Assembly (NCBI GenBank): GCA_947508055.1
Contig: CANNRR010000023.1
Span: forward strand, 1-32,336
Direction: 5' to 3'
DNA: 32,336 nucleotides
Origin: Burkholderiales bacterium
Lineage (GTDB): Bacteria > Pseudomonadota > Gammaproteobacteria > Burkholderiales > Burkholderiaceae_C
Shown: one piece after another, positions 7,776 to 29,446 of the stretch
How the letters are laid out: the number at the start of each line of letters is the position of its first letter
Numbering within the stretch: position 1 is the first letter of the stretch
The notes under the pieces: generated by a model
Told to the model about the DNA's origin: nothing
Databases searched by the model: none
Seen by the model: the letters and a program-made list of their open reading frames with translations, nothing else
Translations under genes and position numbers: made by a program

Positions 7776-7778
7776 TTA

Positions 7779-7827
7779 GGCCCCCGCGCTCTACGCTTGC
7801 GCTCCATCACTGCCGCCCGAGGGGGCT
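7779..7827. repeat. GC-rich dispersed repeat, copy 1 (family A)
   Basis: This intergenic element begins GGCCCCCGCGCT and ends CGCCCGAGGGGGCT. Its outer arms GCCCCC (7780-7785) and GGGGGC (7821-7826) are complementary. A related copy lies in inverted orientation at 30191-30240 inside the HAD gene. The two share the CCCCC(G/A)CGCT start, an inner CGCT and the CCCGAGGGGGC end. I recall similar elements between genes in Comamonadaceae genomes; a genome search is needed to confirm the family. Confidence 0.6.
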
Positions 7828-7892
7828 GTTTTGGCTTGGGGTGGCCCAGTGCCAAAACTTGAAATTCCGGGCTTGACTCCCAGTTATGGCGT

Positions 7893-8750: not shown

Positions 8751-8766
8751 TTCGTTATGGGTCTAC
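8730..8766. terminator. hairpin spanning both ends of convergent mtfA and DUF1330 genes
   Basis: GTAGACCCA (8730-8738) and TGGGTCTAC (8758-8766) form a perfect 9-bp stem with a 19-base loop holding the mtfA stop codon. The right arm lies within the end of the DUF1330 gene. There is no U-run, so it may act as a weak bidirectional terminator or protect both mRNA 3' ends. Confidence 0.5.
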
Positions 8767-9053: not shown

Positions 9054-9103
9054 GGGCACCTCCGTTGAATGGGTTAGTAGTGAAGTCTAAGGCCGACCGC
9101 ATA

Positions 9104-13905: not shown

Positions 13906-16900
13906 ATGCAGGTTCTTTTTTCCGTTTCACCGCAATGGTTGCGCCGTGGACGCTGGTTTTTGGGTGGATTGCTGGTGGTTTGGGTGCTGGCCTGGGTGGC
14001 GGTGCCGCCACTGGCGAAGCGTTTGATCGAAGAGAAGGGCGGCGCGGCGATGGGTCGCACGCTCACCATTGGCTCGGTCAACTTTTATCCGTGGTCGCTG
14101 GAACTCACCGTGCATGACCTGTCCATCGCCACCGCTGACGGCAGCGCCAGGCAGCTCAGTATTGAGCGCCTGTACGTGGATGTTGAGCTGGAATCCGTGC
14201 TGCGCATGGCCCCGGTGGTGGATGCTCTCACGGTGGATGGTCCCACGCTGCACCTCGCCCATTCGGGCGACGGCCATTACGACGTGGAAGACATTCTGGC
14301 CAAGCTGAACAAGGACAGCGCCGCTGCCGCGTCGGCACCGTTGCCATTCGCGCTGTACAACCTCACCATCAATGGCGGAGCGGTGGACTTTACCGACCAC
14401 CTGCCGTCTGGCGAACGCCATCACACGCTGCGGGCGCTACAGTTGGCCATACCATTTTTAAGCACGCTTGACTCCAAGCGCGAGGTCAAGGTCCAGCCAC
14501 GCTTGGCGTTCGAGCTCAATGGCGGCCATTTCGACACCACGGCCGAAGACACCCCCTTTGCCAAAACCCACAAGGGCGATGCCACCATCAAGATTACACA
14601 GCTGGACCTGGCCCCCTACTTGCCCTACCTGCCCGCCAGTTTGCCGGTGCGCCTGCAAAGTGCGGTGGTGGATGCCGATGTGCGCCTGGGCTTTGAGCGA
14701 GCCGCCAAGTCCAAGATCACGCTCAAGGGCTCGATCAAGGTGTCTGGCCTGGCGGTGCTCGATGCGGCGGGCCAGCCGTTGCTTGGCGTGGAAACCATTG
14801 CCGTCGAATTGACCGATGTGCGCCCGTTGGAGAGAATCGTTCACTTGGCATCGCTGGAGATCACCGGGCCCAAACTGCAGGCCACGCGCAACCGCAGCGG
14901 GCATATCAATCTCGACATGGGCAAACCCGACGCAGCACCAGTTGCTACTAAAAATATAGCTGCACCCGCTGTTTCTACAGGGGCTAGCGCCCAGAATGAC
15001 TCAAAGGGTGTGCCGGCACCAGGCGTTTGGAGCCTGGCGCTGGAGCGCCTGGTGGTGCACCAGGGGGATGTCGCTTGGACCGATGACAGCCTGCAACCCC
15101 AAGCCCGGGTGGCGCTGACCCATTTGGAGTTGAAGGCCCAGGCCATGCATTGGCCTTTGACCGCGACGCCCTTCACCTTTGAAGGTTCTGCCAATCTGCC
15201 CTTGCCGGGCAAGCCCGCGCGCCTGCGCGTCAAGGGCGAGGGTGCCCAATCCACCACGACCGTGCACGCCTCGGTTGGCGAACTCGACCTTGGCCTGGTA
15301 GCGCCCCACGTTGCGCAGTTTTTGCTGCCTGGTGTCGTGGGTGTGCTGGACGCTGAAGTGGACCTGCGCGTGCAGGGCGACGCGTTGCAGGTGGCCGTGC
15401 CCCGGTTGACGGTGCGCGACTTTGCGCTTAAGGGTCCGAAAGGGTGGACGGCCGCGGTAGCCGCGACAGCCACGAACGCCGAGCGCGCTGCCAACGAAAT
15501 GCCCAGTTTCAAGCTGCTCGAAGTGGCTGATGCCCAATTTGATATGGCAGCCCGAACCGGTACCGTGGGCAAGCTAGGCCTGCGCTCGCCCAACGCCACG
15601 GTGCACCGCGATGCGCAGGGGCAGTGGATGTTCCAGCGCTGGTTAAAAGCAACACCATCGGCTGCAACCCAGCCTGTGGCGGACTCTGCGCCTGGGCAGG
15701 CTGACACACCCGCGAAGCCACATATCCCCTGGCAAGTGACCCTGGACGAACTGCTCATATTGGATGGCACCGTCAAGCTGGAAGACCGCAGCTTTGCGCG
15801 GCCTGCGCGCCTGGAGGTATCGGCCTTGCAACTGCAACTCAAGGGCGCCGCGCTGGATGGCACCAAACCCGCGCCGCTGACGCTGTCGGCCCGTCTCAAG
15901 TCGGGCCGCGCCGAGCCTGGCAGTCTGCGTTACCAGGGTACTGTGACGTGGATGCCTCTGACCGTGCAAGGCAGTGTGGACGCGGTAGACCTGCCGGTGC
16001 ACGGCGTGGCCCCCTACTTTGCCGATCAGCTCAACATTGCCATCCTGCGCGCTGATGCCAGTTACAAGGGGCAGGTTCACTACGCCGCAAGCCAAACCGG
16101 CGCACAGTTGCAGCTGCAAGGCGATGCAGCACTGGAAGACTTTCGGGCCAACAGCGTGGCGGCAAGGGCAGTAGCTGGCGGTGCGGGCGATGGCAGCACG
16201 GGTCGCACGCCAGCCGTATCCGACGACCTGGGCGTGGCCGAAGAGCTGCTGAGCTGGAAGTCGCTTAATGCACCGGGCATCACCCTGCGCACGGCTCCCG
16301 GCAGCGCCACTCGCGTGCAGGTCCGGGAGGCGACGCTGTCCGACTTCTATGCCCGCGTGATCGTCAACGCGAGCGGGCGGGTTAACCTGCAAGACATGGT
16401 GAAGGCGGCGCCCGCTAGCGAGCCAGCATCGACAGCGCAGGCGCCAACCGCACCAGCCGCCGTTGTCACCATGGGCCCCGTTACCCTGGTCAACGGCCGC
16501 GTGCTGTTCTCGGACCAATTCATCAGACCCAATTACTCTGCCGATCTGAGCGAGCTTAGTGGCAAGCTCGGCGAGTTTTCATCGCAGGCGGCAGACGGCC
16601 GCACGCAGTTGGCCGATCTGGTTCTGCGGGGCCGGGCCGAGGGCACCGCCGCGCTGGAGATCAGCGGCCAGATCAACCCGCTGGCCAAGCCCCTGGCCAT
16701 GGACATCAAAGGCCGAGTGCGGGACCTGGACCTGCCGCCACTAACCGCCTACGCCATCAAATACGCAGGCTATGGCATCGAGCGCGGCAAACTCAGCATG
16801 GATGTGCAATACGCTGTGCAACCCGACGGTCAGTTGCTGGCCAACAATAACCTGGTGCTCAACCAGCTCAGCTTTGGTGACAAGGTGGAAGGCGCCCCCA

Positions 16901-17676
16901 ACAACCTGCCGGTCAAGCTGGCGGTCGCCCTGCTGGCCGACAGCAATGGGGTGATTGACATCAACCTGCCTATCAGCGGGTCTCTGAACGACCCACAGTT
17001 CAGCATCGGCGCAGTGGCGTGGAAAGTCATTACCAACCTCGTCGCCAAGGCGCTGACCGCGCCGTTCAGCTTGCTGGTCAACGCCATTGGCGCAAGCCAG
17101 ACTGAGGACCTGAGTTCCGTCAGCTTTGTGCCGGGCAGCAGCGTACTGTCAGCTGAGGTTGCGCAAGGCCTGGACAGGATTGCAGTGGCGCTGGCAGACC
17201 GCCCGGCACTGCACGTCACTGTGGTCGGAACCGCCAGCATGGTGGTGGAGCGCGACGCTCTCAAGCGGGAGCGCCTCAAAGCCCTGCTGCTGGCCGAAAA
17301 GCGCCGCCGTGCCGCCGTGGGCGGGCAGGACGTCACGGCCGTGGCCGTGTTGACCGATGCCGAGTACCCGGTGCTGCTTAAAGACGTGTACCGGCGTGCC
17401 GACATTGTCAAGCCGCGCAACCTGGTGGGCCTGGCCAAAGAACTAACCGCCGCCGAGATGGAGGCCATGCTGCTGGCCAGTCTCGCCGTCACCGAAGAGT
17501 CTATGCACACGCTGGCGCAGCAGCGCGGCGTGGCCGTGAAAGACTACCTGGCGAGTCGCAAGGTCGGTGTCGAGCGCCTGTTTTTGGGTGCACCCAAGAC
17601 CGCTGTCCCCGATGGCGCGAACGCTTCCGATGCGCAGTGGAAGCCGCATGCTGAGCTTAGCGTGACCAGCCGCTAG
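13906..17676 (+). CDS. DUF748 / AsmA-like large envelope protein
   Basis: The protein has 1256 residues from the ATG at 13906; an in-frame TTG at 13867 is less likely. A hydrophobic helix at about 15-38 anchors it in the inner membrane. The rest is a long repeated beta-rich periplasmic part with AsmA-type strands (GRTLTIGSVNFYPWSLEL, LTINGGAVDF, ANNNLVLNQLSFGD, INLPISGSLNDPQFSIG) typical of DUF748. The C-terminal 170 residues look OmpA-like (VSFVPGSSVLSAEVAQGL, then VVGTASMVVERDALKRERL), a common ending in this family. Related AsmA-clan proteins bridge the envelope and move lipids; that role is inference here. A short dispersed repeat is embedded in an Ala-rich linker near residues 347-362. 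Confidence 0.87.
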   Translation: MQVLFSVSPQWLRRGRWFLGGLLVVWVLAWVAVPPLAKRLIEEKGGAAMGRTLTIGSVNFYPWSLELTVHDLSIATADGSARQLSIERLYVDVELESVLRMAPVVDALTVDGPTLHLAHSGDGHYDVEDILAKLNKDSAAAASAPLPFALYNLTINGGAVDFTDHLPSGERHHTLRALQLAIPFLSTLDSKREVKVQPRLAFELNGGHFDTTAEDTPFAKTHKGDATIKITQLDLAPYLPYLPASLPVRLQSAVVDADVRLGFERAAKSKITLKGSIKVSGLAVLDAAGQPLLGVETIAVELTDVRPLERIVHLASLEITGPKLQATRNRSGHINLDMGKPDAAPVATKNIAAPAVSTGASAQNDSKGVPAPGVWSLALERLVVHQGDVAWTDDSLQPQARVALTHLELKAQAMHWPLTATPFTFEGSANLPLPGKPARLRVKGEGAQSTTTVHASVGELDLGLVAPHVAQFLLPGVVGVLDAEVDLRVQGDALQVAVPRLTVRDFALKGPKGWTAAVAATATNAERAANEMPSFKLLEVADAQFDMAARTGTVGKLGLRSPNATVHRDAQGQWMFQRWLKATPSAATQPVADSAPGQADTPAKPHIPWQVTLDELLILDGTVKLEDRSFARPARLEVSALQLQLKGAALDGTKPAPLTLSARLKSGRAEPGSLRYQGTVTWMPLTVQGSVDAVDLPVHGVAPYFADQLNIAILRADASYKGQVHYAASQTGAQLQLQGDAALEDFRANSVAARAVAGGAGDGSTGRTPAVSDDLGVAEELLSWKSLNAPGITLRTAPGSATRVQVREATLSDFYARVIVNASGRVNLQDMVKAAPASEPASTAQAPTAPAAVVTMGPVTLVNGRVLFSDQFIRPNYSADLSELSGKLGEFSSQAADGRTQLADLVLRGRAEGTAALEISGQINPLAKPLAMDIKGRVRDLDLPPLTAYAIKYAGYGIERGKLSMDVQYAVQPDGQLLANNNLVLNQLSFGDKVEGAPNNLPVKLAVALLADSNGVIDINLPISGSLNDPQFSIGAVAWKVITNLVAKALTAPFSLLVNAIGASQTEDLSSVSFVPGSSVLSAEVAQGLDRIAVALADRPALHVTVVGTASMVVERDALKRERLKALLLAEKRRRAAVGGQDVTAVAVLTDAEYPVLLKDVYRRADIVKPRNLVGLAKELTAAEMEAMLLASLAVTEESMHTLAQQRGVAVKDYLASRKVGVERLFLGAPKTAVPDGANASDAQWKPHAELSVTSR
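14944..14990. repeat. GCTA-N9-TAGC dispersed repeat inside the DUF748 gene (family B)
   Basis: Plus-strand element with core GCTA-CTAAAAATA-TAGC, then TGCAC and a GGGGCTAGCGCCC tail. It is in frame and encodes a segment reading ATKNIAAPAVSTGASA in a linker between beta-rich blocks. It matches the copies at 12331, 26171 and 30445. Confidence 0.65.
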
Positions 17677-17715
17677 CGCGTGCCGGATATTGGCTGGAAT
17701 GTGCTCATTTGCTGC

Positions 17716-18651
17716 CTATGGGCCAGAAAATGGAATATTCTTGTCCTGCGGGTCATCGAAGTGCGCTTCGACATCGCTGGGCAACATTTGAATGGTGGCG
17801 CGCAACCCCGGCACGGCACCCATCAACGCCTGTTCGGCACTGCTGCGAATCGTGGCAGCGCGGCCCAAAGTCCAGTTGGTTGGCATGTGCATGTGCAAGT
17901 CCACAAAGCGGCGTTGACCCGAGCGTCGCGTAATGACATGGTCAAAGCGGATGGTTTGCTTGTCAAAGGAATCGAGCGTCTGCTGAATTTCTCTGAGAAC
18001 GTCGGGTTCAACGGCCTCGTCCATCAGTCCTTGCGATGATCGCCACATCAGGTGGCCGCCTTCCCAGAGAATGTTCAGTGCCACTCCAATGGCGGCAACG
18101 GCATCCAACCAGAGCCAGCCGGTCAACACTACTCCGATCAGACCCACCACCACGCCCACGGACGTCCAGACATCTGTGACCAAATGTTTTGCATCCGCTT
18201 CCAGCGCAATGGAGCGATGCACCTTGGCCGAGCTGAACATAACCCAGGCCAGCAATCCGTTAAGGGCCGAACTCAGCACTGAAAGACCCAAACCCCAGCC
18301 CAGCTCCTGCAATGGCTGCGGTTCAAAGAGGCGGGAGACAGCGGCCCAGATGATGCCCATGGCCACGCCAACGATCAGGACGCCTTCGAAGCCGGACGAG
18401 AAATACTCCGCCTTGTGGTGACCATAGGGGTGCTCTTGGTCTGCAGGCCGTTGTGCAATCGTCACCATCAGCAATGCAAATATGGCGCTGGCCAAATTCA
18501 CAAACGACTCCATGGCGTCTGACAACAACCCAACCGAATCGGTGACATACCAAGCCAACGTTTTGAGCACGATGGTGGTGATGGCTACCGCGATGGAGGC
18601 CCACAGCAACCTTTTTGGGGTCAACCATCGAGTCGGCAACAACGAGATCAT
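17716..18651 (-). CDS. cation diffusion facilitator (CDF) family metal efflux protein
   Basis: The 311-residue inner-membrane protein has about six hydrophobic helices followed by a cytosolic C-terminal domain (residues 205-300). TM2 has D45 in GLLSDAMES and TM5 has H156-x3-D160 in AKHLVTDVWTS, the CDF metal site. The fourth ligand position (Asp in YiiP) is S49 here. The loop EHPYGHHKAEYFSS is the conserved histidine-containing segment between TM2 and TM3. CDF proteins export Zn, Fe, Co or Mn by proton antiport. The metal cannot be assigned. It is convergent with the DUF748 gene (39-base gap). A zinc-ribbon gene lies upstream on the same strand and a ZIP-like gene lies 4 kb away. Confidence 0.92.
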   Translation of the reverse strand: MISLLPTRWLTPKRLLWASIAVAITTIVLKTLAWYVTDSVGLLSDAMESFVNLASAIFALLMVTIAQRPADQEHPYGHHKAEYFSSGFEGVLIVGVAMGIIWAAVSRLFEPQPLQELGWGLGLSVLSSALNGLLAWVMFSSAKVHRSIALEADAKHLVTDVWTSVGVVVGLIGVVLTGWLWLDAVAAIGVALNILWEGGHLMWRSSQGLMDEAVEPDVLREIQQTLDSFDKQTIRFDHVITRRSGQRRFVDLHMHMPTNWTLGRAATIRSSAEQALMGAVPGLRATIQMLPSDVEAHFDDPQDKNIPFSGP

Positions 18652-18824
18652 GGGCAGCGACGGTCTTTCCCTGGCTTGAAAACTAGATTATTTTTGAACC
18701 AGGACATTCTCATTTTTACCCGTCTTCTCCTGTGGCCTGTCGTTCTGGTCTGGCGAGCCCTGCACTTTCTACAGCCTTGTCACTGCATCGGACTGCGGTG
18801 GTGGTGAACTTTCATTCAATGCAA

Positions 18825-19106
18825 TCAATCAAAAATTTCGCCAAGCCAGGATTTCTTGCGATGTTGTTCCTGCCCATAACCGCCATGGTGCGACGAATGA
18901 TGTTCGTCTTTGCGTGGATATCCATTTGGTGGATAGTTGGGTTGTGCAACCGGCATTGCGGCAACGCCAGTTGTCGACCGTTCAATCAACTTGTCGAGTT
19001 CACCGCGATCAAGCCAAACACCGCGGCACTGGGGGCAGTAGTCAATTTCAACGCCTTGGCGTTCGGCCATCAGCAGGCCGGAGTCCGGGCAGACGGGGCA
19101 TTTCAT
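18825..19106 (-). CDS. zinc-ribbon (zf-TFIIB type) small protein
   Basis: The 93-residue protein opens with CPVC (C3, C6) and has CPQC (C24, C27), followed by RGVWLDRGELDKL. This is the TFIIB-type zinc-ribbon signature of small bacterial proteins of unknown role. Residues 50-85 are His/Gly/Pro-rich and low-complexity (HHSSHHGGYG), and the C-terminus KKSWLGEIFD is the short conserved tail common in this family. The cluster likely binds one zinc ion structurally. Function and partners are unknown. It sits between the CDF gene and a DUF2189 gene on the same strand, but the gaps (173 and 104 bases) suggest separate transcripts. Confidence 0.88.
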   Translation of the reverse strand: MKCPVCPDSGLLMAERQGVEIDYCPQCRGVWLDRGELDKLIERSTTGVAAMPVAQPNYPPNGYPRKDEHHSSHHGGYGQEQHRKKSWLGEIFD

Positions 19107-19210
19107 AGGGTTCCATCGCGTAAGGTTGAGCCATCGACACGGTTTTGGAATAGTCCCGTGTTTGACTATCTGGAATATTAGGGCGACCGTCTTAAGGGTT
19201 TCTTATTTTG

Positions 19211-20014
19211 CTACGGCCAACGCACTGAGTCGCGGTATGCATGCCAGCTGGTGTGACCCAGCAGAGGGCCAATCACCGTCAGTCCCACCGCCATCGGGAG
19301 CAGCACAGAAACACCCACCAATAAGGCGATCAGTGCGGCCCACAGCAGCAACACACCCGTGTTTTTCGCCATCACGTCCAGGCTAGTGATAGCTGCCGTA
19401 ATGGCGTCCGTATCACGGTCCAAAATCATAGGCACCGACACCACCGAAAGGCTAAATACTAACGCTGCGAAAGCACCTCCGACAACGGCGTATGCAATAA
19501 CAAACTCCCAGTTGTCGGCGTTCATTGCGGCCTCCATCACATCGAAGTCGGAGGGCACGATGGTGTTGAAGAACAATGCAGTCACGATCAACGATGCCCG
19601 GCCCCATAGCAACGCCAGTACCAACAGCACGCCGACCAGCATGCCCATACTGCGCAGGTGCGGTTTCCAGCTGGTCAGTGAGCCCAGAAAATCGGGTGCC
19701 AAGCCCCGTTCACGGCGGCGACTCGAGTCGTAGAGCCCCATTGCTACGAAGGGCCCAAGCAGCAGGCAGACCGAGATCCCCATCATGGCGTACTCGGGTT
19801 CGAACTGAAACACTCCATCCAGTACCAGCGCCATGCACCAGAAAGGCAAGCCGTAAAAGAGACTGGTAAGCGGATGTGCCGCAATGTCGCGCCAACCCAG
19901 TCTTAGCCAGCTAAAAGGTGCACTCCATGGCAACAGGGTGATCTGTTTGAGCGCTACCTCTGATACGGGCGGAACGTAGGGTTGCGGCGATTCGTCGAGT
20001 AGGGTGCTGGTCAT
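19211..20014 (-). CDS. DUF2189 integral membrane protein
   Basis: The 267-residue protein starts at an ATG with GAGG about 7 bases upstream. After a soluble 35-residue N-terminus (VALKQITLLPWSAPFSWLRLGWRDIAAHP) come about six hydrophobic helices. The stretches RLGWRDIAAHPLTSLFYG, LLLGPFVAMGLYDSSRRRE and GPLLGHTSWHAYRD are the conserved core of DUF2189, an inner-membrane family of unknown function often found near cytochrome and respiratory genes in Burkholderiales. It lies downstream of the redox operon on the same strand after a 116-base gap, which is compatible with a functional link but does not prove one. Confidence 0.88.
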   Translation of the reverse strand: MTSTLLDESPQPYVPPVSEVALKQITLLPWSAPFSWLRLGWRDIAAHPLTSLFYGLPFWCMALVLDGVFQFEPEYAMMGISVCLLLGPFVAMGLYDSSRRRERGLAPDFLGSLTSWKPHLRSMGMLVGVLLVLALLWGRASLIVTALFFNTIVPSDFDVMEAAMNADNWEFVIAYAVVGGAFAALVFSLSVVSVPMILDRDTDAITAAITSLDVMAKNTGVLLLWAALIALLVGVSVLLPMAVGLTVIGPLLGHTSWHAYRDSVRWP

Positions 20015-20130
20015 CTTGAAACCTCAATTGGTTCGAAATATGTCACGTTGTTGATCGCTGCATGAAACGATGAATCCATTGTGCAAGTTGTGCCTTAAGG
20101 ACCGCTTATGCACTTGCATGAGACGTCTAT

Positions 20131-20862
20131 TCAGTCGTGCTCGCGCCCGTCGCCATTTTTTTCCTTGCCACCTATGATGTCGTGCTTATTACCGCTGCGG
20201 TGACATTCCACGCAGTTGTCAAACTGGCGAATACCCTCTTCGACATGCTCGCGCCGGATATTGGCAGGGGTGTGTTCATGGCACCCATAACAGGTGTAGC
20301 GGCTGTAGTCGTTGCGCACATGGCAGGTCACACACGTCGCGGTGTGGTCGCGGTCCAGCGCAAAGTACTTGTCGTGCTCAAAAGTGGCTGGGGTCCACTT
20401 CTGCTGGGTGTGGCACTGGGCACAGTTGCCGGTGATTTGCTTGTGTAGCGCATCGGCCGGTGACTTGTGGCAGTTCTGGCACTGGTGGCTGGTTTCCTTC
20501 TTCAGTAGCGCATGGTCGAAATAGCCTTTCAGGTGGTAACGCTTTACCCCCGCGTGGTCGCTGTGGCAGGCCACGCAGTCCTGGCTGATGAGTTCCTGGT
20601 GGAAGGGGGTGGAGGTGAGCGGCTTTGCAACCGGTAAACCTTTGGTTGTCACACGCCCGATGTCGGCGGGCTTATGGCAGCTTACGCACTTGGGGGAAGC
20701 GACCCCGGTGAATGAGATGTGGCAGGCAAAGCAATCCGTATCAAGCTGCTTGTGCCCCGGGATCAGCTTGCCAGGGCCGACCATGAGATGCGGATAGGCA
20801 AAGGTCAGCACAGCCAAGACCATCAGGTTGATGGCCAGAATAATCTTGAGAGTCCGGCTCAT
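20131..20862 (-). CDS. membrane-anchored octahaem c-type cytochrome
   Basis: The protein has 243 residues from the ATG at 20862; the longer frame upstream has no support, and this ATG overlaps the stop of the preceding gene as ATGA. Residues 5-24 are an uncleaved-looking signal anchor (LKIILAINLMVLAVLTFAY). The periplasmic part has eight CXXCH haem sites: 44-48, 59-63, 96-100, 128-132, 147-151, 177-181, 191-195 and 217-221. Many further histidines (for example H88, H110, H163, H173) could be distal ligands. No catalytic Lys-type CXXCK is present, so it looks like an electron carrier or wire rather than a nitrite reductase of the NrfA type. It is the last gene of the three-gene redox operon. 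Confidence 0.88.
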   Translation of the reverse strand: MSRTLKIILAINLMVLAVLTFAYPHLMVGPGKLIPGHKQLDTDCFACHISFTGVASPKCVSCHKPADIGRVTTKGLPVAKPLTSTPFHQELISQDCVACHSDHAGVKRYHLKGYFDHALLKKETSHQCQNCHKSPADALHKQITGNCAQCHTQQKWTPATFEHDKYFALDRDHTATCVTCHVRNDYSRYTCYGCHEHTPANIRREHVEEGIRQFDNCVECHRSGNKHDIIGGKEKNGDGREHD

Positions 20863-21437
20863 ACCCAACCCCAGAACAAAAATATGCTGAAGATATGGCC
20901 TAGCGCCAGCACCGCAAACACGATGAAGATGGGGATGTGGACCTTGCGCCACTGCGTCATGGCACCCAACGCCACAGCATCCCAAAATACGGCCTGTTCA
21001 ACCTCGGTCTTGGACAAGCCACGCAGTTGGAAACGCTCGCGCTCGCCTTGTACGTGCTGACGCGACTGGTTTAACAACATCTTGCCTACCATGCCGCTGA
21101 TCACGTTGACCCCCATCGCCACGGTGGCTAGCCACGGCAGGATGGCATTGAAGTGGATTCCGGCATGGATCAGCACCATCAAAGAGCCCAGCCAGGTGCC
21201 AAACTCATGCATGGTCAAGAGCGACTTGATGTTCCCCGTGGTGACCCATTTGCGCTTGCGCGCCGAGTAGTACAGCGAGCCAATAATCAGCAGTGTGCCT
21301 GGGATTCCCATGTAGCGCCCAACCCAGACCAGGTCCAGTCGGTGCAACACATAGTCTCCTGCCAAGGTGGCCGCAGCCAAAAGTCCCAGCAGCAAGGTAA
21401 ACGGCAACACATGTTCGCGCCACAGTGAGTTTTTCAT
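20859..21437 (-). CDS. membrane di-haem b protein with ferric reductase/NOX-type His spacing
   Basis: The 192-residue protein has about five hydrophobic helices. Two of them carry His pairs 14 residues apart: H77 and H91 (MHEFGTWLGSLMVLIH), and H167 and H181 (HIPIFIVFAVLALGH). This H-x13-H in two helices is the bis-haem ligand pattern of ferric reductase and NADPH oxidase membrane domains. H95 is an extra histidine near the second haem level. A basic, charged loop (122-148) probably faces the cytosol. The start ATG directly follows the TAA of the reductase gene (TAAATG), with GGAGG just upstream, so the two are coupled. I infer transfer of electrons across the membrane from the reductase to the octahaem cytochrome. 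Confidence 0.8.
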   Translation of the reverse strand: MKNSLWREHVLPFTLLLGLLAAATLAGDYVLHRLDLVWVGRYMGIPGTLLIIGSLYYSARKRKWVTTGNIKSLLTMHEFGTWLGSLMVLIHAGIHFNAILPWLATVAMGVNVISGMVGKMLLNQSRQHVQGERERFQLRGLSKTEVEQAVFWDAVALGAMTQWRKVHIPIFIVFAVLALGHIFSIFLFWGWV

Positions 21438-22727
21438 TTACGCCTCCAGAGTCACAGCAGTTTTTGGAGTGCAAACGCACAGCAGGCAACTGCCCGCTTC
21501 GGGATCAAAATCTGGCGCCTGCGCGTAGGCCACTTCGCCAGAGCGGATGCTGGTCTGACAACTGCCGCAACCGCCCGCCCGACACCCAGAGCTGACCACA
21601 ATGCCATGGTTTTCAGCAAAATCCAGCAGCGAGCCCATACCAGGCTCCCAAGTCTCCTGTTTGCCGGACTTGGCAAACGTCACCACGACAGCACATCCCT
21701 TGTCATCGCGCTGCGACGGGGCCCGCGTGGTGGCTGCCGAGTGTTTGCGCGGGACGGATGCCGGTCCAAACGCCTCAAAGTGAATTCGTGCGTCCGGAAC
21801 ACCCCAATCTTCCAGCGCGGGCACCAGGCTTTGCAGCATCGGGGTAGGCCCGCAAAGGTAGTAATGGTAGGGTTTGAGCGGCAATACGCTGCGTAGCAGG
21901 GCGACGCTCACGCGGCTGTGGTGGAAGCGAACTGGCCCTGAGCGATGCCCGCCAAGGTCATTCGGCTGCGGGTCGCTCATGCACAGGTGCAGATGAAAGT
22001 TTGGATGCTGCGCGGCCAAGTCTTCCAGATGCATTTGCAGCACCAGCTCGGCGCTGTTGCGCACGCCGTAAAACAGCCACACCTCGCGCCCTGGCTGTGC
22101 CACCAAGCACCAGTTCAGCATGCTCAACATGGGCGTGATGCCAATGCCTCCCCCAATCAGCACCACCGGCGAGTTGCTATGGTCGATATGGAAGTGGCCG
22201 GCAGGAGCGCGCACCTGGAGCTGGCTACCCACTTCGACATGGTCATGGAAGTAGTTTGAAGAAATACCCTGTGGTATCTGACTGCCAAAAGGCGCAGGCG
22301 CACGTTTGACGGAAATGCGGTAATGGCCGGGGTTTGGTGCGTCCGACAGTGAGTAGCAACGAATGACGGATTGGTTCTCCCCCGTTGGAGAGGGAACGCC
22401 AAGTTTAAAGGTGAGAAACTGGCCGGGAAGAAATGTGGCGAGCGGTCGCCCGTCCTCGGGTACGAGATAAAACGAACAGACTTGGCTGGCAGTGCCTTCT
22501 TGCGCCTTGCGTTTGACGTAAAAGGTGCGATAGCCCGGCCATTCAGTCGTTGGTGGCTGCATTTCTTCTGGAGTCACGTCTGGATTCACTGAAATTTCAA
22601 ACTCGGCTGCCGCGTTGCGTAGCGCCCGGTAGCCCTGCCAGTGGCGCCAGAATCCAATACTCAAATAGATGGCAATTTGAAGCAGGACGCCCCCTGCAAT
22701 CCAGAGCGACAGGTAAAGAGATGTCAT
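21438..22727 (-). CDS. membrane-anchored FAD/NAD(P)H reductase with C-terminal 2Fe-2S domain
   Basis: The 429-residue protein has one N-terminal helix (5-26) and then three cytosolic domains. The FAD domain (about 60-180) has the FAD-binding R-x-Y-S motif as RCYSL at 123-127. The NAD(P) domain (185-320) has GGGIGITPM at 192-200 and CGPTPM at 292-297. The plant-type ferredoxin domain (345-429) has ligands C382, C387, C390 and C417 in GCRAGGCGSCQ and CLLC. The domain order matches flavohaemoglobin/phthalate-dioxygenase-reductase type proteins such as HCP reductase (Hcr) and NqrF-like enzymes, but with an N-terminal anchor. It is the first gene of the operon and should feed electrons from NAD(P)H to the membrane haem protein. 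Confidence 0.9.
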   Translation of the reverse strand: MTSLYLSLWIAGGVLLQIAIYLSIGFWRHWQGYRALRNAAAEFEISVNPDVTPEEMQPPTTEWPGYRTFYVKRKAQEGTASQVCSFYLVPEDGRPLATFLPGQFLTFKLGVPSPTGENQSVIRCYSLSDAPNPGHYRISVKRAPAPFGSQIPQGISSNYFHDHVEVGSQLQVRAPAGHFHIDHSNSPVVLIGGGIGITPMLSMLNWCLVAQPGREVWLFYGVRNSAELVLQMHLEDLAAQHPNFHLHLCMSDPQPNDLGGHRSGPVRFHHSRVSVALLRSVLPLKPYHYYLCGPTPMLQSLVPALEDWGVPDARIHFEAFGPASVPRKHSAATTRAPSQRDDKGCAVVVTFAKSGKQETWEPGMGSLLDFAENHGIVVSSGCRAGGCGSCQTSIRSGEVAYAQAPDFDPEAGSCLLCVCTPKTAVTLEA

Positions 22728-22762
22728 AGATGAGACGAAGCTTATGCCTTGCGTCTTAACGT

Positions 22763-22780
22763 TTGATTAACAAATATCAA
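22763..22780. promoter_or_regulatory. TTGAT-N8-ATCAA dyad, overlapping FNR-like site
   Basis: A dyad TTGAT-N8-ATCAA lies 36-53 bases upstream of the redox operon start and 62-79 bases upstream of the ZIP-like gene. FNR needs a 4-base spacer; the overlapping 14-mer TTAAC-AAAT-ATCAA (22767-22780) matches FNR at 8 of 10 positions. Flanking CTTAA and TTAAG extend the symmetry. Oxygen-responsive control of one or both divergent genes is a candidate. Confidence 0.45.
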
Positions 22781-22841
22781 TTAAGGCCACACTAAGGTAG
22801 GCAAACTAAGCTGTGCGCATTCCCACTCAGGTTTTTTAGCA

Positions 22842-23561
22842 ATGAACACCCACAATTTCTTGATCATGACCATTCCCGCATTGGTGGCTTTGGGCGGCGG
22901 GGTTCTTGCTGCGTTCTGGACTCCGAGTCATGCCACGCGCAGTCTGATCCAGCACTTTGCAGCGGGCGTGGTGCTGGCCGCGCTCGCGGTCGAACTGCTC
23001 CCGGAAATCGAACGTGAACATGCGCCAGGGTTGGTTCTGGCAGGCGCGTTCGCATTGGGCAGTCTGTTCATGTACGGCCTGAAATTGTGGACACTGCGCA
23101 TGGAGCATTCAGCCACCTTGGCTGGAACGGCATCAGGACTCAGTACGGGGCTGTTGTTGGCGACCTTCATCGACGTGGCAACCGACGGTTTCATCATTGG
23201 CGCGGGCTTTGCCGCGGGTGGGGAAACCGGAACCATATTGGCACTTGGGCTCTCGGTGGAGCTCCTGTTTCTGGGACTGGCGCTGACGTCTGCGGCTACC
23301 TCGGGTGGCAAGATCATCGCCATTTCCGGTGCTCTGGGTGTCACGGTGCTGGTTTTTTCGTTATTGGGCAATGTCTTGCTTGCAGGGGCATCCCACGCAG
23401 TGATTGGCGGCACGCTGGCCTTCAGCGCGGCCGCACTCCTGTACCTCGTAACCGAAGAACTGCTGATGGAGGCGCATGAGGTCGAAGAACGGCCCATTTC
23501 GACCCTGGTACTGTTCGGCGGCTTTCTGGCTTTTTGGAGCATCCAGCTGATGGGTCGTTAG
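22842..23561 (+). CDS. ZIP-family-like metal transporter
   Basis: The 239-residue membrane protein has about seven to eight hydrophobic helices. TM2 carries HFAAGVVLAALAVELLPE, the HxxAG...ELLPE pattern of ZIP proteins, and TM4/TM5 contain FIDVATDGFIIGAGFAAGG, corresponding to the ZIP metal site (D and G in place of the usual H-N). The C-terminus has TEELLMEAHEVEE, with a metal-binding look. ZIP proteins move zinc, iron or manganese into the cytosol; the replaced ligands leave the substrate and even the direction uncertain. It is divergent from the redox operon and shares its promoter region, so co-regulation is possible. Confidence 0.82.
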   Translation: MNTHNFLIMTIPALVALGGGVLAAFWTPSHATRSLIQHFAAGVVLAALAVELLPEIEREHAPGLVLAGAFALGSLFMYGLKLWTLRMEHSATLAGTASGLSTGLLLATFIDVATDGFIIGAGFAAGGETGTILALGLSVELLFLGLALTSAATSGGKIIAISGALGVTVLVFSLLGNVLLAGASHAVIGGTLAFSAAALLYLVTEELLMEAHEVEERPISTLVLFGGFLAFWSIQLMGR

Positions 23562-23613
23562 GCTATTCCCAGGCTGATGCCAGGCTGCGGCCCCGCAAGC
23601 GCAATCATTGAAA

Positions 23614-24618
23614 TTAGTCCACCCGTGCGCCGGATACCTTGACCACCTGCGCCCACTTTTTGTGCTCGCTCTCGATAAGAGCTGCGAATTGTGCAGGTGT
23701 GTTGCCGCTGGGAATGGCGCCCTGCGACAGCATTTTTTCGTTGATGGTGGGGTTGTTGAGTGCCTTGGTTACTTCTTGTTGAATGCGGTTGACCACGTCA
23801 ACCGGTGTACCTGCCGGAGCCAGCAGTCCAAACCAGCTGGTGGCTTCAAAACCTTTGAGCCCAACCGCCTCTTCAATGGTTGGCACATCGGGCAGGGCGG
23901 CTGAGCGCGTGGCGCTGGTCACAGCCAATGCCTTGAGCTTGCCGCTCTTGATGAGTTGCATAGCCGAGGGCAGGTTGTCAAACATCACGTCCACCTGGCC
24001 ACCCACCAGGTCCAGCAGGGCAGGGCCGGAGCCCCGGTAAGGAATGTGGGTCATGAAGATACCGGTCTGGCTTTTGAACAACTCGCCCGCCAGGTGGATG
24101 GAGGTGCCGTTTCCGCTGGACCCCATGTTGAGCTTGCCGGGTTGGGACTTGGCGAGCTTGATGAAGTCCTGCGCAGTGTTGATGCCGTTGGTGCGTGCGG
24201 CCTCGGCCGGCACCACCATCACATTGGGCACGCTGGCCACCAGGGTTATGGGCACGAAGTCCTTGAACGGGTCATAGGGCAACTTGGGGTACAGCGCCCG
24301 GTTGATGCCGTGCGTGCCCACCGTCCCCATGAGCAGGGTGTAGCCGTCGCCCGGTGACTTGGCGACCATGTCGGCACCGAGGTTGCCGCCAGCACCGGGC
24401 TTGTTGTCCACCACAATCTGCTGCCCAAATGCTTTGGATAATTCAGGCGCCACGGCGCGCGCCAAAATGTCGGTCGTGCCACCTGGCGCAAACGGCACCA
24501 CGATGCGCACCGGCTTGTTTGGCCAGGCAGCCTGAGCACGGGCGCCAGTGCCGGTCAGGGTCAGCAGTGCGGCGACGCTGGCGAGCAGCAGTTGGCGTTT
24601 CGAATTCACATGGTGCAT
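23614..24618 (-). CDS. Bug-type (TctC) periplasmic solute receptor
   Basis: The 334-residue protein starts at the ATG at 24618 (GGAG 8 bases upstream; a longer frame is rejected). It has a signal peptide ([19 protein letters not shown], cut near AQA). The mature protein has the hallmarks of the tripartite tricarboxylate transporter receptor family: [38 protein letters not shown], and the closing-lid stretch [11 protein letters not shown]. These receptors bind carboxylated small molecules in the periplasm. No TctA/TctB permease genes are present, which is common for the large orphan Bug sets of Burkholderiales, so the ligand is unknown. It is divergent from murJ with only about 80 bases between starts. 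Confidence 0.93.
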
Positions 24619-24700
24619 GATTTGTCTCCTATTGGCAGGGTTTGTGGGCATCATAGCGGCGTGGCGTGGAGACCAGGTTTCAGCGGGCTACACTGGCGCC

Positions 24701-26266
24701 GTGAGCCTCATTAAATCCGCCTCCATCGTCTCCTTGCTGACTCTGGCCTCGCGTATCAGCGGGTTGGTGCGCGACCTGCTCATGGCATCGACTTTTGGTG
24801 TGAGCGCCATGACCGATGCGTTCTGGGTGGCGTTTCGCATTCCCAATATGCTGCGCCGCATGTTTGCCGAAGGCGCGTTCAGCCAGGCCTTCGTTCCCGT
24901 TCTGGCTGCGAGCAAGGAGCGCGATGGCGACGCCGCGACCCACGTGCTGATCAACGCTGTGGCGACCTTGCTCACCATGGCCTTGCTGGTGACCTGCGTG
25001 GTGGGCGTGGTGGGTGCGCCTGTTCTGGTCTATCTGTTGGCCAGCGGTTTGTCGCAACGGCCTGAAGGGTATGAGGCCGCCGTGGTGATGACGCGCTGGA
25101 TGTTTCCCTACATCGCCTGCATGTCCCTGGTGGCGATGGGGGCGGGCGTCCTCAACACCTGGAAGAAATTTGCCATCCCGGCAGCAACACCAGTCTTGCT
25201 CAACGTGGCCATGATCACGGCCGCCTGGCTGGGCGCGCCCTGGTTTGCGCGAATGGGAATCGAGCCGATTTACGCCATGGCTGGTGGCGTGATGGTGGGC
25301 GGTGTGCTGCAGTTGGGAGCCATTTTGCTGGCATTGCAGCGCATCGGACTGGCACCCAGAATACGGTTGAGTGTTACTGCAACCCGGGCGGCCTGGAGTG
25401 ATCCTGCTACCAAAAAAATAGTTCACTTGATGGGACCGGCCCTGTTGGGTGTGAGCGTGGCCCAAATTTCGCTATTGATCAATACGCAGATCGCGTCCCA
25501 TCTTGCAACGGGTTCCGTTACGTGGCTGAGCAATGCGGGTCTGTTGATGGAATTTCCCACCGCCATGTTGGGCGTGGCATTGGGGGTGGTCCTTATGCCG
25601 CAGTTGGCTGCGGCCAAGGCCAGCAATGATTCCGAGAAGTTTTCCCACATGATCGACTGGGGTTTGCGTCTGGTGGTGTTGCTGGCCGTGCCCAGCGCGG
25701 TCGCACTCCTCACGTTTGCCCAGCCTTTGGTGGCTGTGATATTTCACAATGGTCGTTACACCGATGCAGACGTGGTGCAAACCACCGGGGCTCTGATGGG
25801 CTATGGCGCCGGCTTGCTGGGTCTGGTTGCCATCAAGGTGCTGACGCCGGGCTACTTCGCCAACCAGAACATCAAGACACCGGCCCTGATTGGTGTGGCG
25901 GTGCTGGTCATTACGCAGGTTTTGAACGTGTTGTTTGTGCCCCTGCTGGCCCACGCGGGCCTGGCGCTGGCCATTGGCGTGGGCGCCATGGTGAATGCGC
26001 TTTGGCTGCTGGTGGGCCTGGTGCGCAGTCGCACATTCGTTGCGCAACCGGGCTGGGCGCGCTTTGCCTTGCAGGTGCTGGCGGCCAGTGCGTTGCTGGC
26101 TATCTTCCTGATGTGGGCCAATAGCTCCATCCCGTGGCTTGCCATGCATGCCGAAAAACTAAAACGGATTGGGGCGCTGGCGCTCGTCGTTTCTAGTGGT
26201 GCAGCTATTTATTTCATAGCAATTTGGGCGACCGGGTTGAACCTGCGTCAGTTGTTGCGGCGGTAG
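24701..26266 (+). CDS. murJ: lipid II flippase MurJ
   Basis: This 521-residue inner-membrane protein of the MOP family has about 14 hydrophobic helices and flips the peptidoglycan precursor lipid II to the periplasm. The N-terminus (SLIKSASIVSLLTLASRISGL, then RDLLMASTFGVSAMTDAFW) and FRIPNMLRRMFAEGAFSQAFVPV are near-invariant in MurJ/MviN. The GTG at 24701 is chosen because it aligns with the usual start; no clear ribosome-binding site precedes it, and an earlier ATG at 24548 runs antisense through the Bug gene. The length is close to E. coli MurJ (511). The last 32 residues are partly encoded by a dispersed repeat, and this end is normally variable. The SirB1-like gene starts 21 bases downstream. 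Confidence 0.95.
   Translation: MSLIKSASIVSLLTLASRISGLVRDLLMASTFGVSAMTDAFWVAFRIPNMLRRMFAEGAFSQAFVPVLAASKERDGDAATHVLINAVATLLTMALLVTCVVGVVGAPVLVYLLASGLSQRPEGYEAAVVMTRWMFPYIACMSLVAMGAGVLNTWKKFAIPAATPVLLNVAMITAAWLGAPWFARMGIEPIYAMAGGVMVGGVLQLGAILLALQRIGLAPRIRLSVTATRAAWSDPATKKIVHLMGPALLGVSVAQISLLINTQIASHLATGSVTWLSNAGLLMEFPTAMLGVALGVVLMPQLAAAKASNDSEKFSHMIDWGLRLVVLLAVPSAVALLTFAQPLVAVIFHNGRYTDADVVQTTGALMGYGAGLLGLVAIKVLTPGYFANQNIKTPALIGVAVLVITQVLNVLFVPLLAHAGLALAIGVGAMVNALWLLVGLVRSRTFVAQPGWARFALQVLAASALLAIFLMWANSSIPWLAMHAEKLKRIGALALVVSSGAAIYFIAIWATGLNLRQLLRR
26171..26220. repeat. GCTA-N9-TAGC dispersed repeat in the murJ 3' end (family B)
   Basis: The minus-strand reading is GCTA-TGAAATAAA-TAGC followed by TGCACC and a tail ending in CGCCCC. 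The palindromic ends extend to 5 bases (GCTAT at 26204-26208 and ATAGC at 26216-26220). It is within the coding sequence, about 50 bases before the murJ stop. Confidence 0.6.
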
Positions 26267-26287
26267 GCGCAGAATGGGTCAGAGACC

Positions 26288-27133
26288 ATGAACCTGTCAT
26301 TTGATCTGCCCACTCCGTTGGATTACTTCGCATCGCTGGTGGAGCGCGATGTCGAGTTTGCGTTGTTTGAGGCAGCCGTCAGTTTGGCGCAGGACGAATA
26401 CCCGGAAGTGGACGTGCAAACCGTGTTGAGCGAGGTTGACCAACTGCAGTCGCGGTTGCGCCGGCGCATTGCGGCCGACACCGGGGCGGTGCAGAAGTTG
26501 CGCATCCTGAACCAATTCTTCTTTCAGGATCTGGGTTTTGCCGGCAACGTCAATAACTACTACGACCCTGACAACAGTTTCGTCCACATTGTGTTGCACA
26601 CGCGCCGGGGCATCCCGATCACACTGGCCGTGTTGTGGATGGAATTGGCCCAGGGACTGGGTCTGTCGGTGCGGGGTGTTGGTTTTCCGGGGCATTTCCT
26701 GGTCAAGGTGAACTTGCCCATGGGGCAGGTGGTGATTGACCCTATGGATGGGAAATCCCTTGGCCGCGAACAGTTGTCCGAGCGGTTGGAGCCGTATCGG
26801 AGAAATAGCGGTTTGCTTGACGAGTTGGAGACGCCGTTGGGGCTGTACCTGCAAACAGCCCCTTCGCGGGACATCATCGCCCGCATGTTGCGCAACCTGA
26901 AGGAAATTCATAAGACCCATAGCGACTGGGTGCGCCTGCTGGCCGTGCAGGAACGACTGATCGTGTTGCTGCCCGAGTCATGGATCGACTACCGCGATCG
27001 TGGTTTGGCCCACGCCCAGCTAGGTCAGACCGAGCAGGCACTAGCCGATCTGGAGTGTTATCTGGTGCACGCCGATGAGCACATCAACCTGGACGCGATT
27101 GCCGATTGGGTCGATGCCCTGCGGCGCTCCTGA
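26288..27133 (+). CDS. SirB1-family transglutaminase-like protein with TPR-like C-terminus
   Basis: The 281-residue cytosolic protein has the SirB1 (transglutaminase-like core 2) pattern at about 60-180: LNQFFFQDLGFAGNVNNYYD, then SFVHIVLHTRRGIPITLAVLW and GVGFPGHFLVK. The position of the transglutaminase catalytic Cys appears to be occupied by Ser (the S of NSFVHIVL), as in most SirB1 members, so it is probably not an active protease. Residues 205-281 contain helical repeats of TPR type (RLIVLLPESWIDYRDRGLAH, AQLGQTEQALADLECYL). The family is conserved in proteobacteria, often near prfA/hemK or here murJ, but without a settled function. It follows murJ by 21 bases and is probably cotranscribed. 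Confidence 0.87.
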   Translation: MNLSFDLPTPLDYFASLVERDVEFALFEAAVSLAQDEYPEVDVQTVLSEVDQLQSRLRRRIAADTGAVQKLRILNQFFFQDLGFAGNVNNYYDPDNSFVHIVLHTRRGIPITLAVLWMELAQGLGLSVRGVGFPGHFLVKVNLPMGQVVIDPMDGKSLGREQLSERLEPYRRNSGLLDELETPLGLYLQTAPSRDIIARMLRNLKEIHKTHSDWVRLLAVQERLIVLLPESWIDYRDRGLAHAQLGQTEQALADLECYLVHADEHINLDAIADWVDALRRS

Positions 27134-27169
27134 CTTTTCTTGATGAGCGACGGGTGGCCTTGCACGCCT

Positions 27170-28249
27170 TCAAACGACCACCACCGAGGCGCCGCTACCC
27201 TGAGTGGCGATTGCACCGATGGAGAACACCGTCTCACCGCTGGCGCGCAGGGTCGCTGCCACAGCTTCGGCGTTGGCTGCATCGACGACGACCACCATAC
27301 CAATGCCATTGTTGAAAGTGCGACTCATCTCCATGTCGTCAATGCCGGCCGTCTTTTGCAACCAGGCAAACAGTTCGGTTTGCGGCCAGCTGCCTTTTTT
27401 AAGGTGGGCGGCCATGCCTTCGGGCAGTACGCGTGGAATGTTTTCCAGCAGACCGCCACCGGTGATATGGGCCAGCGCCTTGATGCCGCCGGGCGAGGTG
27501 CCATCCACTGAGTGCGGGTGGGCAGCCAGCGCCGCAAGCACGTTTTTCACATACAGGCGGGTGGGCTCCATGATGGCTTGCTTGAAAGGTTTGCCGTCCA
27601 GCACTTCAGGAATAGTGCCGGCCGCTTCGGCGCGCTCGATGCACTTGCGCACCAGGCTGAAACCATTCGAGTGCACGCCATGGCTGGCCAGACCGAGCAC
27701 CACGTCACCGGGCTTTATATTAGCGCCGGTCAGGATTTTGGACTTTTCGACTGCACCCACTGCGAAGCCGGCCAGGTCGTATTCGCCGGCCGGGTACATG
27801 CCGGGCATTTCAGCGGTTTCGCCGCCGATCAAAGCGCAACCCGACAGTTCGCAACCCTTCGCAATCCCTCCGATGACGGCTGCTGCGGTGTCTACGTCGA
27901 GCTTGCCGCAGGCAAAGTAGTCCAGGAAGAACAGGGGCTCGGCCCCCTGCACCAGCACATCGTTCACGCTCATGGCAACCAAATCGATACCCACGGTGTC
28001 GTGCATATTCCACTCAAACGCCAGTTTGAGCTTGGTGCCCACGCCATCAGTGCCACTCACCAGCACCGGCTCCGTGTAGCGCTTGGGTACTTCGAACAGG
28101 GCGCCAAAGCCGCCAATGCCGGCCAGCACGCCTTCGCGCATGGTTTTTTTTGCCAGCGGTTTGATGCGTTCGACCAGAGCATCGCCGGCGTCAATGTCGA
28201 CGCCGGCGTCTTTGTAGGAGAGGGGAGCGGGGCTGCTGGATTGGGTCAT
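27170..28249 (-). CDS. purM: phosphoribosylformylglycinamidine cyclo-ligase
   Basis: This 359-residue cytosolic enzyme performs step five of purine synthesis, closing the imidazole ring of FGAM to AIR using ATP. Family signatures include [20 protein letters not shown] at the N-terminus, [12 protein letters not shown], the [20 protein letters not shown] stretch, [15 protein letters not shown], and [17 protein letters not shown]. The start is placed at the ATG at 28249, where the protein begins [16 protein letters not shown]; a longer frame from 28285 would add 12 residues. The length is close to E. coli PurM (345). It is divergent from the AI-2E permease gene (104-base gap). This neighbourhood is common in Burkholderiales. 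Confidence 0.97.
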
Positions 28250-28353
28250 TTGGATGGGATGGGGAATGGGCTTGCAGACTGACATGAGCGGCTCTTTGGG
28301 CTAAGCCGATAGAATTTGCCCAGATTTTACGGGTTCACTCCCTCCATTCCTGT

Positions 28354-29436
28354 ATGCAATTGACGCCACCCCAAAAAAGTTTTGTCGCCTGGAGTCTGAT
28401 AGCGGCGCTATTGGGCTTCGCCTTGTGGCGACTGGCGCCAGTGCTGACGCCTTTTGTGGTGGCCAGCGTGCTGGCGTACGCCTTGACGCCGATTGTGAAC
28501 TGGCTGGACAACGTTGGTCGGGGCCACATTCCGCGCGTACTGGCCGTGATCGTGGTGGAGCTGCTGTTCATTTTTGCCATGCTGGGTCTCCTTTTTCTGA
28601 TGATTCCCATTCTGGCCAAAGAATTGCCGTTGATGCGGGAGCAGTTGCCTGCCGTCATGGATAGCGTCAATACAGCGGCCAAGCCCTGGCTGGCACAGTG
28701 GGGTATTCACCTGTCGCTGGACGGCGACAGTATCAAAGCCTTTGTGATGAAATACCTCAATGCCAATGTTGAGGACGCATTGGGCTCTGTGCTGGCGTCG
28801 CTCAAGATGGGGGGCAGCGTTGCGTTTACGCTGATTGGCAACGCCATCCTGATCCCGGTAGCGTTGTTTTATTTGTTGATGGACTGGGACCGTTTTATCG
28901 GCCAACTCCGCGCCCTGATACCACCGCGCATGCAGACCGGCAGCGACCGATTTCTGGGCGAAGCCGATGCTGTGCTGGGGCAGTACCTGCGGGGCCAACT
29001 GCTGGTCATGCTGCTGCTGGCGGTGTTCTACAGCGTGGGCCTTGCCCTGTTTGGTCTGGACCTGGCGATGCCGATCGGGATATTTACCGGGCTAGCCATG
29101 TTTGTGCCTTACGTCGGCTTCGGCATTGGGCTGGTGCTCGCCATTTTTGCCGGCTTGCTGCAGTTCACCGCGACGGTTGGCATAGGGCAAACCGTTGTTA
29201 TGGTGGCGGTGGTGTATGGCGGTGGCCAGTTGCTGGAAGGGTTCTTCCTGACCCCGCGCCTGGTAGGCGAGCGCATTGGTCTGCACCCCCTGGCCGTTAT
29301 TTTTGCCTTGCTGGCATTCGGGCAACTGTTTGGGTTTGTCGGTGTGCTGGTCGCGCTGCCACTGAGCGCGGTGTTGCTGGTTGCCATCCGGCGTGTCAGG
29401 TCGGGCTACCTGGCCAGCCACTTGTACAAAGGCTGA
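28354..29436 (+). CDS. AI-2E family transporter (PerM-type permease)
   Basis: The 360-residue inner-membrane protein has about eight hydrophobic helices in the AI-2E/PerM arrangement. Two or three helices at the N-terminus (LAPVLTPFVVASVLAYALTP) are followed by a soluble loop (about 90-150), then further helices with GQYLRGQLLVMLLLAVFYS, PYVGFGIGLVLA and LTPRLVGERIGLHPLAVIF. All are family-typical. Members export or import small signals, or act as Na+/H+ antiporters, so the substrate is unknown. It lies directly upstream of hda, with 10 bases between the stop and the hda start, which suggests one transcript through hda, the HAD gene and pcnB. Confidence 0.92.
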   Translation: MQLTPPQKSFVAWSLIAALLGFALWRLAPVLTPFVVASVLAYALTPIVNWLDNVGRGHIPRVLAVIVVELLFIFAMLGLLFLMIPILAKELPLMREQLPAVMDSVNTAAKPWLAQWGIHLSLDGDSIKAFVMKYLNANVEDALGSVLASLKMGGSVAFTLIGNAILIPVALFYLLMDWDRFIGQLRALIPPRMQTGSDRFLGEADAVLGQYLRGQLLVMLLLAVFYSVGLALFGLDLAMPIGIFTGLAMFVPYVGFGIGLVLAIFAGLLQFTATVGIGQTVVMVAVVYGGGQLLEGFFLTPRLVGERIGLHPLAVIFALLAFGQLFGFVGVLVALPLSAVLLVAIRRVRSGYLASHLYKG

Positions 29437-29446
29437 GTGCACGAGC

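Follow-up and report, generated by a model that had tools for sequence, protein, structure and literature searches.

A three-gene operon from a Burkholderiales bacterium predicted to relay electrons through a reductase, a di-haem membrane protein and an octahaem cytochrome

Among the multihaem cytochrome clusters described by He et al. (2017; PMC5566968; statements on this and the other articles cited by PMC number refer to the parts of them considered here), the porin-cytochrome clusters PCC3 and PCC4 encode membrane proteins with five helices, an SGXXG motif in helix four, and WX3HX13H motifs in helices three and five, which were regarded as related to the ferric reductase domain (FRD) and for which a quinone role was proposed. 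The same article also dealt with unassigned periplasmic multihaem genes: frequently, the gene immediately downstream encodes a shorter five-helix inner-membrane protein with two HX13H motifs. These proteins were left unnamed and were reported as not significantly homologous to those of PCC3/PCC4; their clusters mostly carried another redox gene and, save for two exceptions, no porin. Herein, we analyzed contig CANNRR010000023.1 of a Burkholderiales bacterium (GCA_947508055.1; 32,336 nucleotides, the whole stretch being referred to as the window), the minus strand of which carries three adjoining genes in the order reductase, membrane protein, and octahaem cytochrome. This trio is a real and widespread arrangement of a partly described kind, with a predicted function as an electron relay.

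The short-protein clusters of He et al. (2017) in all likelihood include the present operon. Both have a short two-HX13H membrane protein, a multihaem neighbor, and another redox gene, whereas the membrane gene lies downstream of the multihaem gene there and upstream of it here. The initial annotation of the window, made from the DNA letters, knew of no named system with this composition; similar clusters had in fact been noted, and they remained without a name. No name or experiment for the trio was found in literature titles and abstract openings, in which subscription journals were thinly covered. Like the PCC3/PCC4 proteins, the membrane protein of the trio combines two HX13H motifs with an SGxxG motif in the predicted helix four and has a multihaem neighbor, whereas it comprises 192 residues instead of about 300, and the adjoining cytochrome has eight haems, as against a median of 21 for the periplasmic cytochrome of PCC3. 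As to the WX3H element of PCC3/PCC4, a tryptophan (W163) precedes the second motif, whereas a leucine occupies the corresponding position 73 before H77. The features of the trio are the following.

21438..22727, minus strand: reductase, 429 amino acids, N-terminal helix followed by FAD, NAD(P), and plant-type 2Fe-2S domains (Pfam, motifs)
22656..22712, minus strand: hydrophobic N-terminal helix of the reductase, residues 6-24 (hydropathy)
22188..22442, minus strand: FAD-binding domain of the reductase, residues 96-180 (PF00970)
21828..22160, minus strand: NAD(P)-binding domain of the reductase, residues 190-300 (PF00175)
21462..21665, minus strand: 2Fe-2S domain of the reductase, residues 355-422 (PF00111; CX4CX2C at 382)
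20859..21437, minus strand: membrane protein, 192 amino acids, proposed di-haem b protein (alignments, relation to longer relatives)
21165..21209, minus strand: first H-x13-H motif, H77 and H91 (invariant in 65 sequences)
21084..21098, minus strand: SGxxG motif, residues 114-118, fourth predicted helix (motif scan; S114, G115, and G118 invariant)
20895..20939, minus strand: second H-x13-H motif, H167 and H181, preceded by W163 (invariant in 65 sequences; motif scan)
20859..20862, minus strand: ATGA overlap of the membrane gene stop and the cytochrome gene start (sequence)
20131..20862, minus strand: anchored octahaem cytochrome, 243 amino acids from the ATG (Pfam, alignment)
20797..20853, minus strand: N-terminal anchor of the cytochrome, residues 4-22 (hydropathy)
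20200..20733, minus strand: stretch holding the eight CXXCH motifs (motif scan; all eight invariant in 66 sequences)

The frames were found exactly as the initial annotation had given them, with a TAAATG junction between the reductase stop and the membrane gene start and the ATGA overlap at the cytochrome gene. The composition proposed there, namely a reductase, a membrane protein with H-x13-H motifs, and an eight-haem cytochrome, was upheld by Pfam and motif searches. The open reading frame (ORF) of the cytochrome encodes 243 residues if the ATG is the start, and is listed with 284 residues from an upstream TTG.

A scan of named genomes yielded 518 relatives of the membrane protein, among which the best-scoring 80 loci were kept, so that close relatives are favored; many of these loci are closely related, and the neighbor counts given for them are neither independent events nor matched by control neighborhoods. 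Labels beginning with L, G, and C hereafter denote a locus or stretch, a sampled genome, and a contig of the window's genome, respectively. The cytochrome gene was located 3' of the membrane gene in all 80 loci (it is cut off by the contig end in L105), and the reductase gene 5' of it in 79 (with a partial match in L064), the exception being L107, in which a 489-residue gene of another kind takes its place. Co-occurrence of the three genes elsewhere, a check proposed by the initial annotation, was thereby borne out. The junctions were conserved as well: no base separates the reductase stop from the membrane gene start in 57/79 loci, and the 4-base ATGA overlap is kept in 78/79. Such tight gene coupling suggests that the three products form one machine. 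The host names include Rhodoferax, Polaromonas, Accumulibacter, Dechloromonas, Azonexus, Aromatoleum, Thiobacillus, Gallionella, Sideroxydans, Sideroxyarcus, and Ferrigenium, together with at least two bins named "Gammaproteobacteria bacterium". In a sample of the order, 28 of 300 genomes gave a membrane protein match at E 0.001, comprising nine with a near-full-length gene (in two pieces in G220), two with fragments (G064 and G221), and 17 with longer relatives of about 300 residues only; the reductase was detected inside the 1.5-kb flank in eight of the nine, G240 (L010) being the exception. In a sample of the phylum, 26 of 398 genomes matched at E 1e-10, of which 24 encoded the short protein and two the longer relatives (G442 and G480), and tblastn of the fetched flanks found an adjacent reductase, in some cases partial, in 13 of the 24; the locus of G428 lies at a contig edge. 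A plasmid collection gave no match to the membrane protein. The distance correlations among the three proteins in 76 loci (0.74 to 0.79) were obtained without a control and are not used as evidence.

The reductase matched FAD_binding_6, NAD_binding_1, and Fer2 and contained RCYS at 123 and GGGIGITP at 192 besides the cysteine motif of the 2Fe-2S domain, and its closest solved relatives by sequence were flavohaemoproteins. The cytochrome matched Cytochrom_c3_2, Cytochrome_C7, and Paired_CXXCH_1. Across 66 aligned cytochromes, nine further histidines were invariant in addition to the eight CXXCH motifs, so that there would be enough ligands for eight bis-His haems. Exactly eight CXXCH motifs were counted in 78 of the 80 loci, ten in one, and two in one. 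The structure model of the cytochrome built from the 66 sequences had a predicted local distance difference test score (pLDDT) of 49 and was not usable.

No Pfam family was assigned to the membrane protein above the cut-off (one match was sub-threshold), and neither NCBIfam nor the sequences of the PDB yielded a match. Its alignment, consisting of 65 sequences (the window and 64 of the 80 loci, near-duplicates having been removed), revealed the invariant histidines H32, H77, H91, H95, H167, and H181, which include each of the four haem-ligand candidates named by the initial annotation (H77, H91, H167, and H181). In a low-confidence model built from the same 65 sequences (mean pLDDT 65), helices span residues 5-33, 44-61, 70-94, 99-138, and 143-188, and the H-x13-H motifs sit on helices 3 and 5. 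Since basic stretches occur near residues 59-63 and within 118-169, H77 and H167 may face the cytosol, whereas H91 and H181 may face the periplasm, each of these two putative pairs holding one haem.

Comparison with the longer relatives provided a link to the PCC3-type proteins. Profile comparison by hhalign aligned the short family with the family of about 300 residues at a probability of 98.9 (E 1.2e-17) over residues 24-125, which cover the first H-x13-H only; both motifs with the same spacing were present in all 18 aligned longer relatives. This homology to PCC3-like proteins stands in contrast to the report of He et al. (2017) mentioned above. A multihaem ORF with 4 to 14 CXXCH motifs lay within 1.5 kb in 20/20 loci of the longer relatives examined, and wider stretches around five of them contained 24 to 27 CXXCH. 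Judged by their size, motifs, and 24-CXXCH partners rather than by comparison with the published sequences, the longer relatives appear to be the published PCC3-type proteins. One such locus in the window's own genome (L145 on contig C183) encodes a longer membrane protein, a 24-CXXCH cytochrome, a CcmH-like protein, and a 429-residue 4Fe-4S/pyridine-nucleotide oxidoreductase, and resembles PCC3 of PMC5566968.

Taken together, the trio probably constitutes an NAD(P)H-driven electron line of the inner membrane, comparable to an NADPH oxidase that has been divided among several chains and extended by a haem wire. The domains, motifs, conservation, gene order, and homology to longer membrane proteins were observed, whereas the ligation and pairing of the haems, the route and direction of the electrons, and the acceptor are inferred. 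Electrons would pass from NAD(P)H via FAD to the 2Fe-2S cluster inside the membrane-anchored cytosolic reductase, then to an inner haem b (H77/H167) and an outer haem b (H91/H181) of the membrane protein, and finally to the anchored eight-haem periplasmic cytochrome and its periplasmic acceptors. The reductase would be the usual entry, others being possible, and the membrane protein and cytochrome would be the core. With respect to the acceptor, the cation-efflux genes in the neighborhood described below suggest metals as a first guess, followed by SHP/DHC in some lineages. The extracellular electron transfer that the initial annotation had listed as one option is not favored: no porin was recognized by eye among the ORFs at 14000-30000 of the window, where no systematic porin search was made, and extracellular transfer was likewise judged less likely for porin-less clusters by He et al. 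(2017).

Like NADPH oxidases and other FRD proteins, the trio combines a FAD/NAD reductase with two H-x13-H motifs in a membrane part, which would fall on helices 3 and 5 according to the pLDDT 65 model, whereas it differs from them in having separate chains in the window and 79 loci, an additional 2Fe-2S domain and octahaem cytochrome, no PF01794 match, and five predicted helices instead of six. Splitting of a NOX-like chain into separate proteins is already known from MsrQ and the reductase Fre. The layout proposed by the initial annotation, with the functions of an NADPH oxidase on separate chains, was retained, whereas the splitting itself is not new in principle. In terms of general descriptions rather than aligned sequences, the MsrQ-Fre-MsrP system also consists of a separate flavin reductase, a haem b membrane protein, and a periplasmic partner, whereas its flavin reductase is soluble and devoid of 2Fe-2S, and a molybdenum enzyme takes the place of the multihaem cytochrome.

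Several observations weigh against the proposed line. A simple hydropathy scan passed three stretches only (residues 13-31, 99-117, and 170-188) of the membrane protein, and the five-helix topology is thus not proved, as it depends on the model of pLDDT 65. A fold search of the PDB with this model gave nothing at E <=0.001; its top row, csNOX5 at E 1.0, is not counted as evidence. Profile comparison with 14 FRD flavocytochromes was not significant for either the short family (E 0.096) or the long family (E 0.18), and although the first HX13H motifs of the long family and of the FRD proteins align in register, this proves nothing at E 0.18. An adjacent reductase was lacking in 10 of the 24 phylum-sample genomes; five of these (G339, G367, G324, G398, and G317) hold a relative with 44-46% identity on another contig, and no reductase was detected genome-wide at E 1e-20 in G371, G309, G390, G379, and G466 (the last being 65% complete), so that another donor, perhaps quinol, would be required there. 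The reductase is hence a usual neighbor that is not obligatory, and the pair of membrane protein and cytochrome is the stable core. Finally, a quinone role is preferred by He et al. (2017) for the longer membrane proteins.

That proposal, made for the PCC3/PCC4 membrane proteins, would place the membrane protein between the quinone pool and the periplasmic cytochrome, with electrons moving either way and the reductase as an auxiliary. The loci without a reductase leave room for such a route, and a b561-type gene lies directly 5' of the pair in L168; we nevertheless consider it rather unlikely for the trio, as the reductase gene is joined to the membrane gene in nearly all of the best loci. If the line ran inward, from periplasmic cytochromes via the b haems to the flavoprotein with formation of NAD(P)H, the iron- or sulfur-oxidizing genera whose names several hosts bear would be accounted for; this direction is nonetheless highly improbable, since both the redox gradient and the membrane potential would oppose it, and other hosts belong to genera known as heterotrophs. 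Outward flow is downhill in both respects.

The octahaem cytochrome might alternatively be a dedicated supplier of DHC and SHP (DUF1924) in oxygen or nitric oxide (NO) chemistry, which we regard as improbable, if less so than an inward line. SHP and DHC are both present in 19/80 loci, a single-chain ferric-reductase-type flavocytochrome is present in 14/80, and SHP binds oxygen with a reported NO dioxygenase activity (PMC2909971). The SHP/DHC/cytochrome b operons of that article also have a b-type protein feeding periplasmic c haems and are frequent neighbors of the trio, whereas they consist of different proteins and most trio loci lack SHP/DHC. SHP was missing from 28 of the 42 loci having at least 6 kb on both sides, the neighboring flavocytochrome could serve SHP alone, and the genome-wide co-occurrence of SHP with the trio in the order sample was not significant (4/9 trio genomes versus 82/300 overall, Fisher p=0.26). 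SHP was accordingly rejected as a general partner of the trio. Since the trio occurs twice in one Accumulibacter set (L048 and L049), the "novel quinol reductase" of Accumulibacter (PMC4930944) was also considered. In terms of its general description, that enzyme is a fused protein, whereas the trio is unfused.

The metals proposed as the first acceptor of the NAD(P)H-driven line are suggested by the following gene near the trio.

17716..18651, minus strand: CDF cation-efflux gene, 1.5 kb downstream of the trio on the same strand (Pfam)

Relatives of this gene were detected by tblastn in 23/80 loci, including 17 of the 42 that are flanked by 6 kb or more on each side; they lie on the trio strand in 22/23, and the distance to the trio, measured between tblastn matches, is about 230 bp or less in 18/23 (15 downstream and 3 upstream). 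Pfam confirmed Cation_efflux for the window gene, L046, L089, and L168. Other metal-type neighbors were an ArsR-family regulator with an ArsP-type permease (G390), a CDF gene (G466), and an RND ACR_tran transporter (G480). On the plus strand at 22842-23561, a divergent gene of the window encodes a 239-residue multi-helix membrane protein, which looked by eye like a ZIP-type metal transporter and gave no Pfam match at 0.001; its relatives were found near the trio in 6/80 loci.

Several of the SHP/DHC loci, e.g., that of Dechloromonas agitata, also contain PepSY proteins and a two-component system. In L072 (2348-5560), genes for SHP, DHC, a PepSY protein, and a ferric-reductase-type flavocytochrome form a row, which recurs in L062, L065, L066, L067, L069, L073, L089, and L099. 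By gene content, as compared through descriptions, this row resembles ircABCD, which encodes dihaem, monohaem, hypothetical, and b-type cytochrome proteins (PMC12442390), while the order of the two cytochromes seems different. In one Sideroxydans, ircABCD and the membrane component encoded by one of the PCC3 copies are reported to rise with iron-oxidizing ability, and no mention of the trio was found in the part of that article considered (PMC12442390). Two SHP genes are present in the genome of the window, and one of them shares a contig with a ferric-reductase-type protein.

The genome bin of the window contains a second copy of the trio (L154, contig C103, about 7307-9903) with a 93% identical membrane protein and other neighbors, including a two-component system; given a bin contamination of 6.78%, this copy may come from another strain. 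L012 (G064) and L013 (G221) hold fragments of the membrane and cytochrome genes that are apparently decaying, and an SHP gene lies about 10 kb from the fragments in G064. A distant trio in G480 consists of a 454-residue FAD/NAD/Fer2 reductase, a 252-residue membrane protein, and a six-CXXCH cytochrome. A subgroup of the longer proteins (L014, L018, L019, L021, L022, L027, L028, and L030) adjoins ORFs for which 4 or 6 CXXCH were counted within the short flank; the wider stretch L151 contains 10 CXXCH, and the ORF of L014 appeared forkhead-associated-like by eye. A ten-haem forkhead-associated protein has been listed for Gallionellaceae (PMC10734462). Near loci that combine the longer membrane protein with a 24-CXXCH cytochrome, Pfam identified membrane-anchored flavoproteins with 4Fe-4S and pyridine-nucleotide oxidoreductase domains in L145 (5717-7006) and L149 (4927-6222), and similar flavoprotein N-termini were judged by eye in L147 (2477-3826) and L152 (6805-8151).

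The presence of such flavoproteins near the longer-relative loci raises the idea that NAD(P)H, and not quinone, might be linked to PCC3-like wires as well. What the present analysis adds to the earlier description of such clusters is the conserved reductase, the PCC3-type homology, and the CDF and SHP/DHC neighbors. How electrons cross the inner membrane has yet to be settled for PCC3-type wires and for multihaem cytochromes lacking a known partner. Since three small, joined genes encode the wire together with the membrane haem protein and the likely donor, the question of NAD(P)H or quinone becomes directly testable. The cation-efflux neighborhood offers a first physiological lead for a membrane protein outside the Pfam and NCBIfam models. 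As a tentative proposal, a five-helix di-haem module combined with varied flavoproteins (FAD/NAD/2Fe-2S here, the 4Fe-4S/pyridine-nucleotide type near PCC3-like loci) and wires of 6 to 24 haems could define a widespread, quinone-independent class of conduits linking pyridine nucleotides directly to periplasmic multihaem cytochromes, the short form of which would act with cation-efflux pumps in the metal chemistry of the periplasm and not in extracellular respiration.

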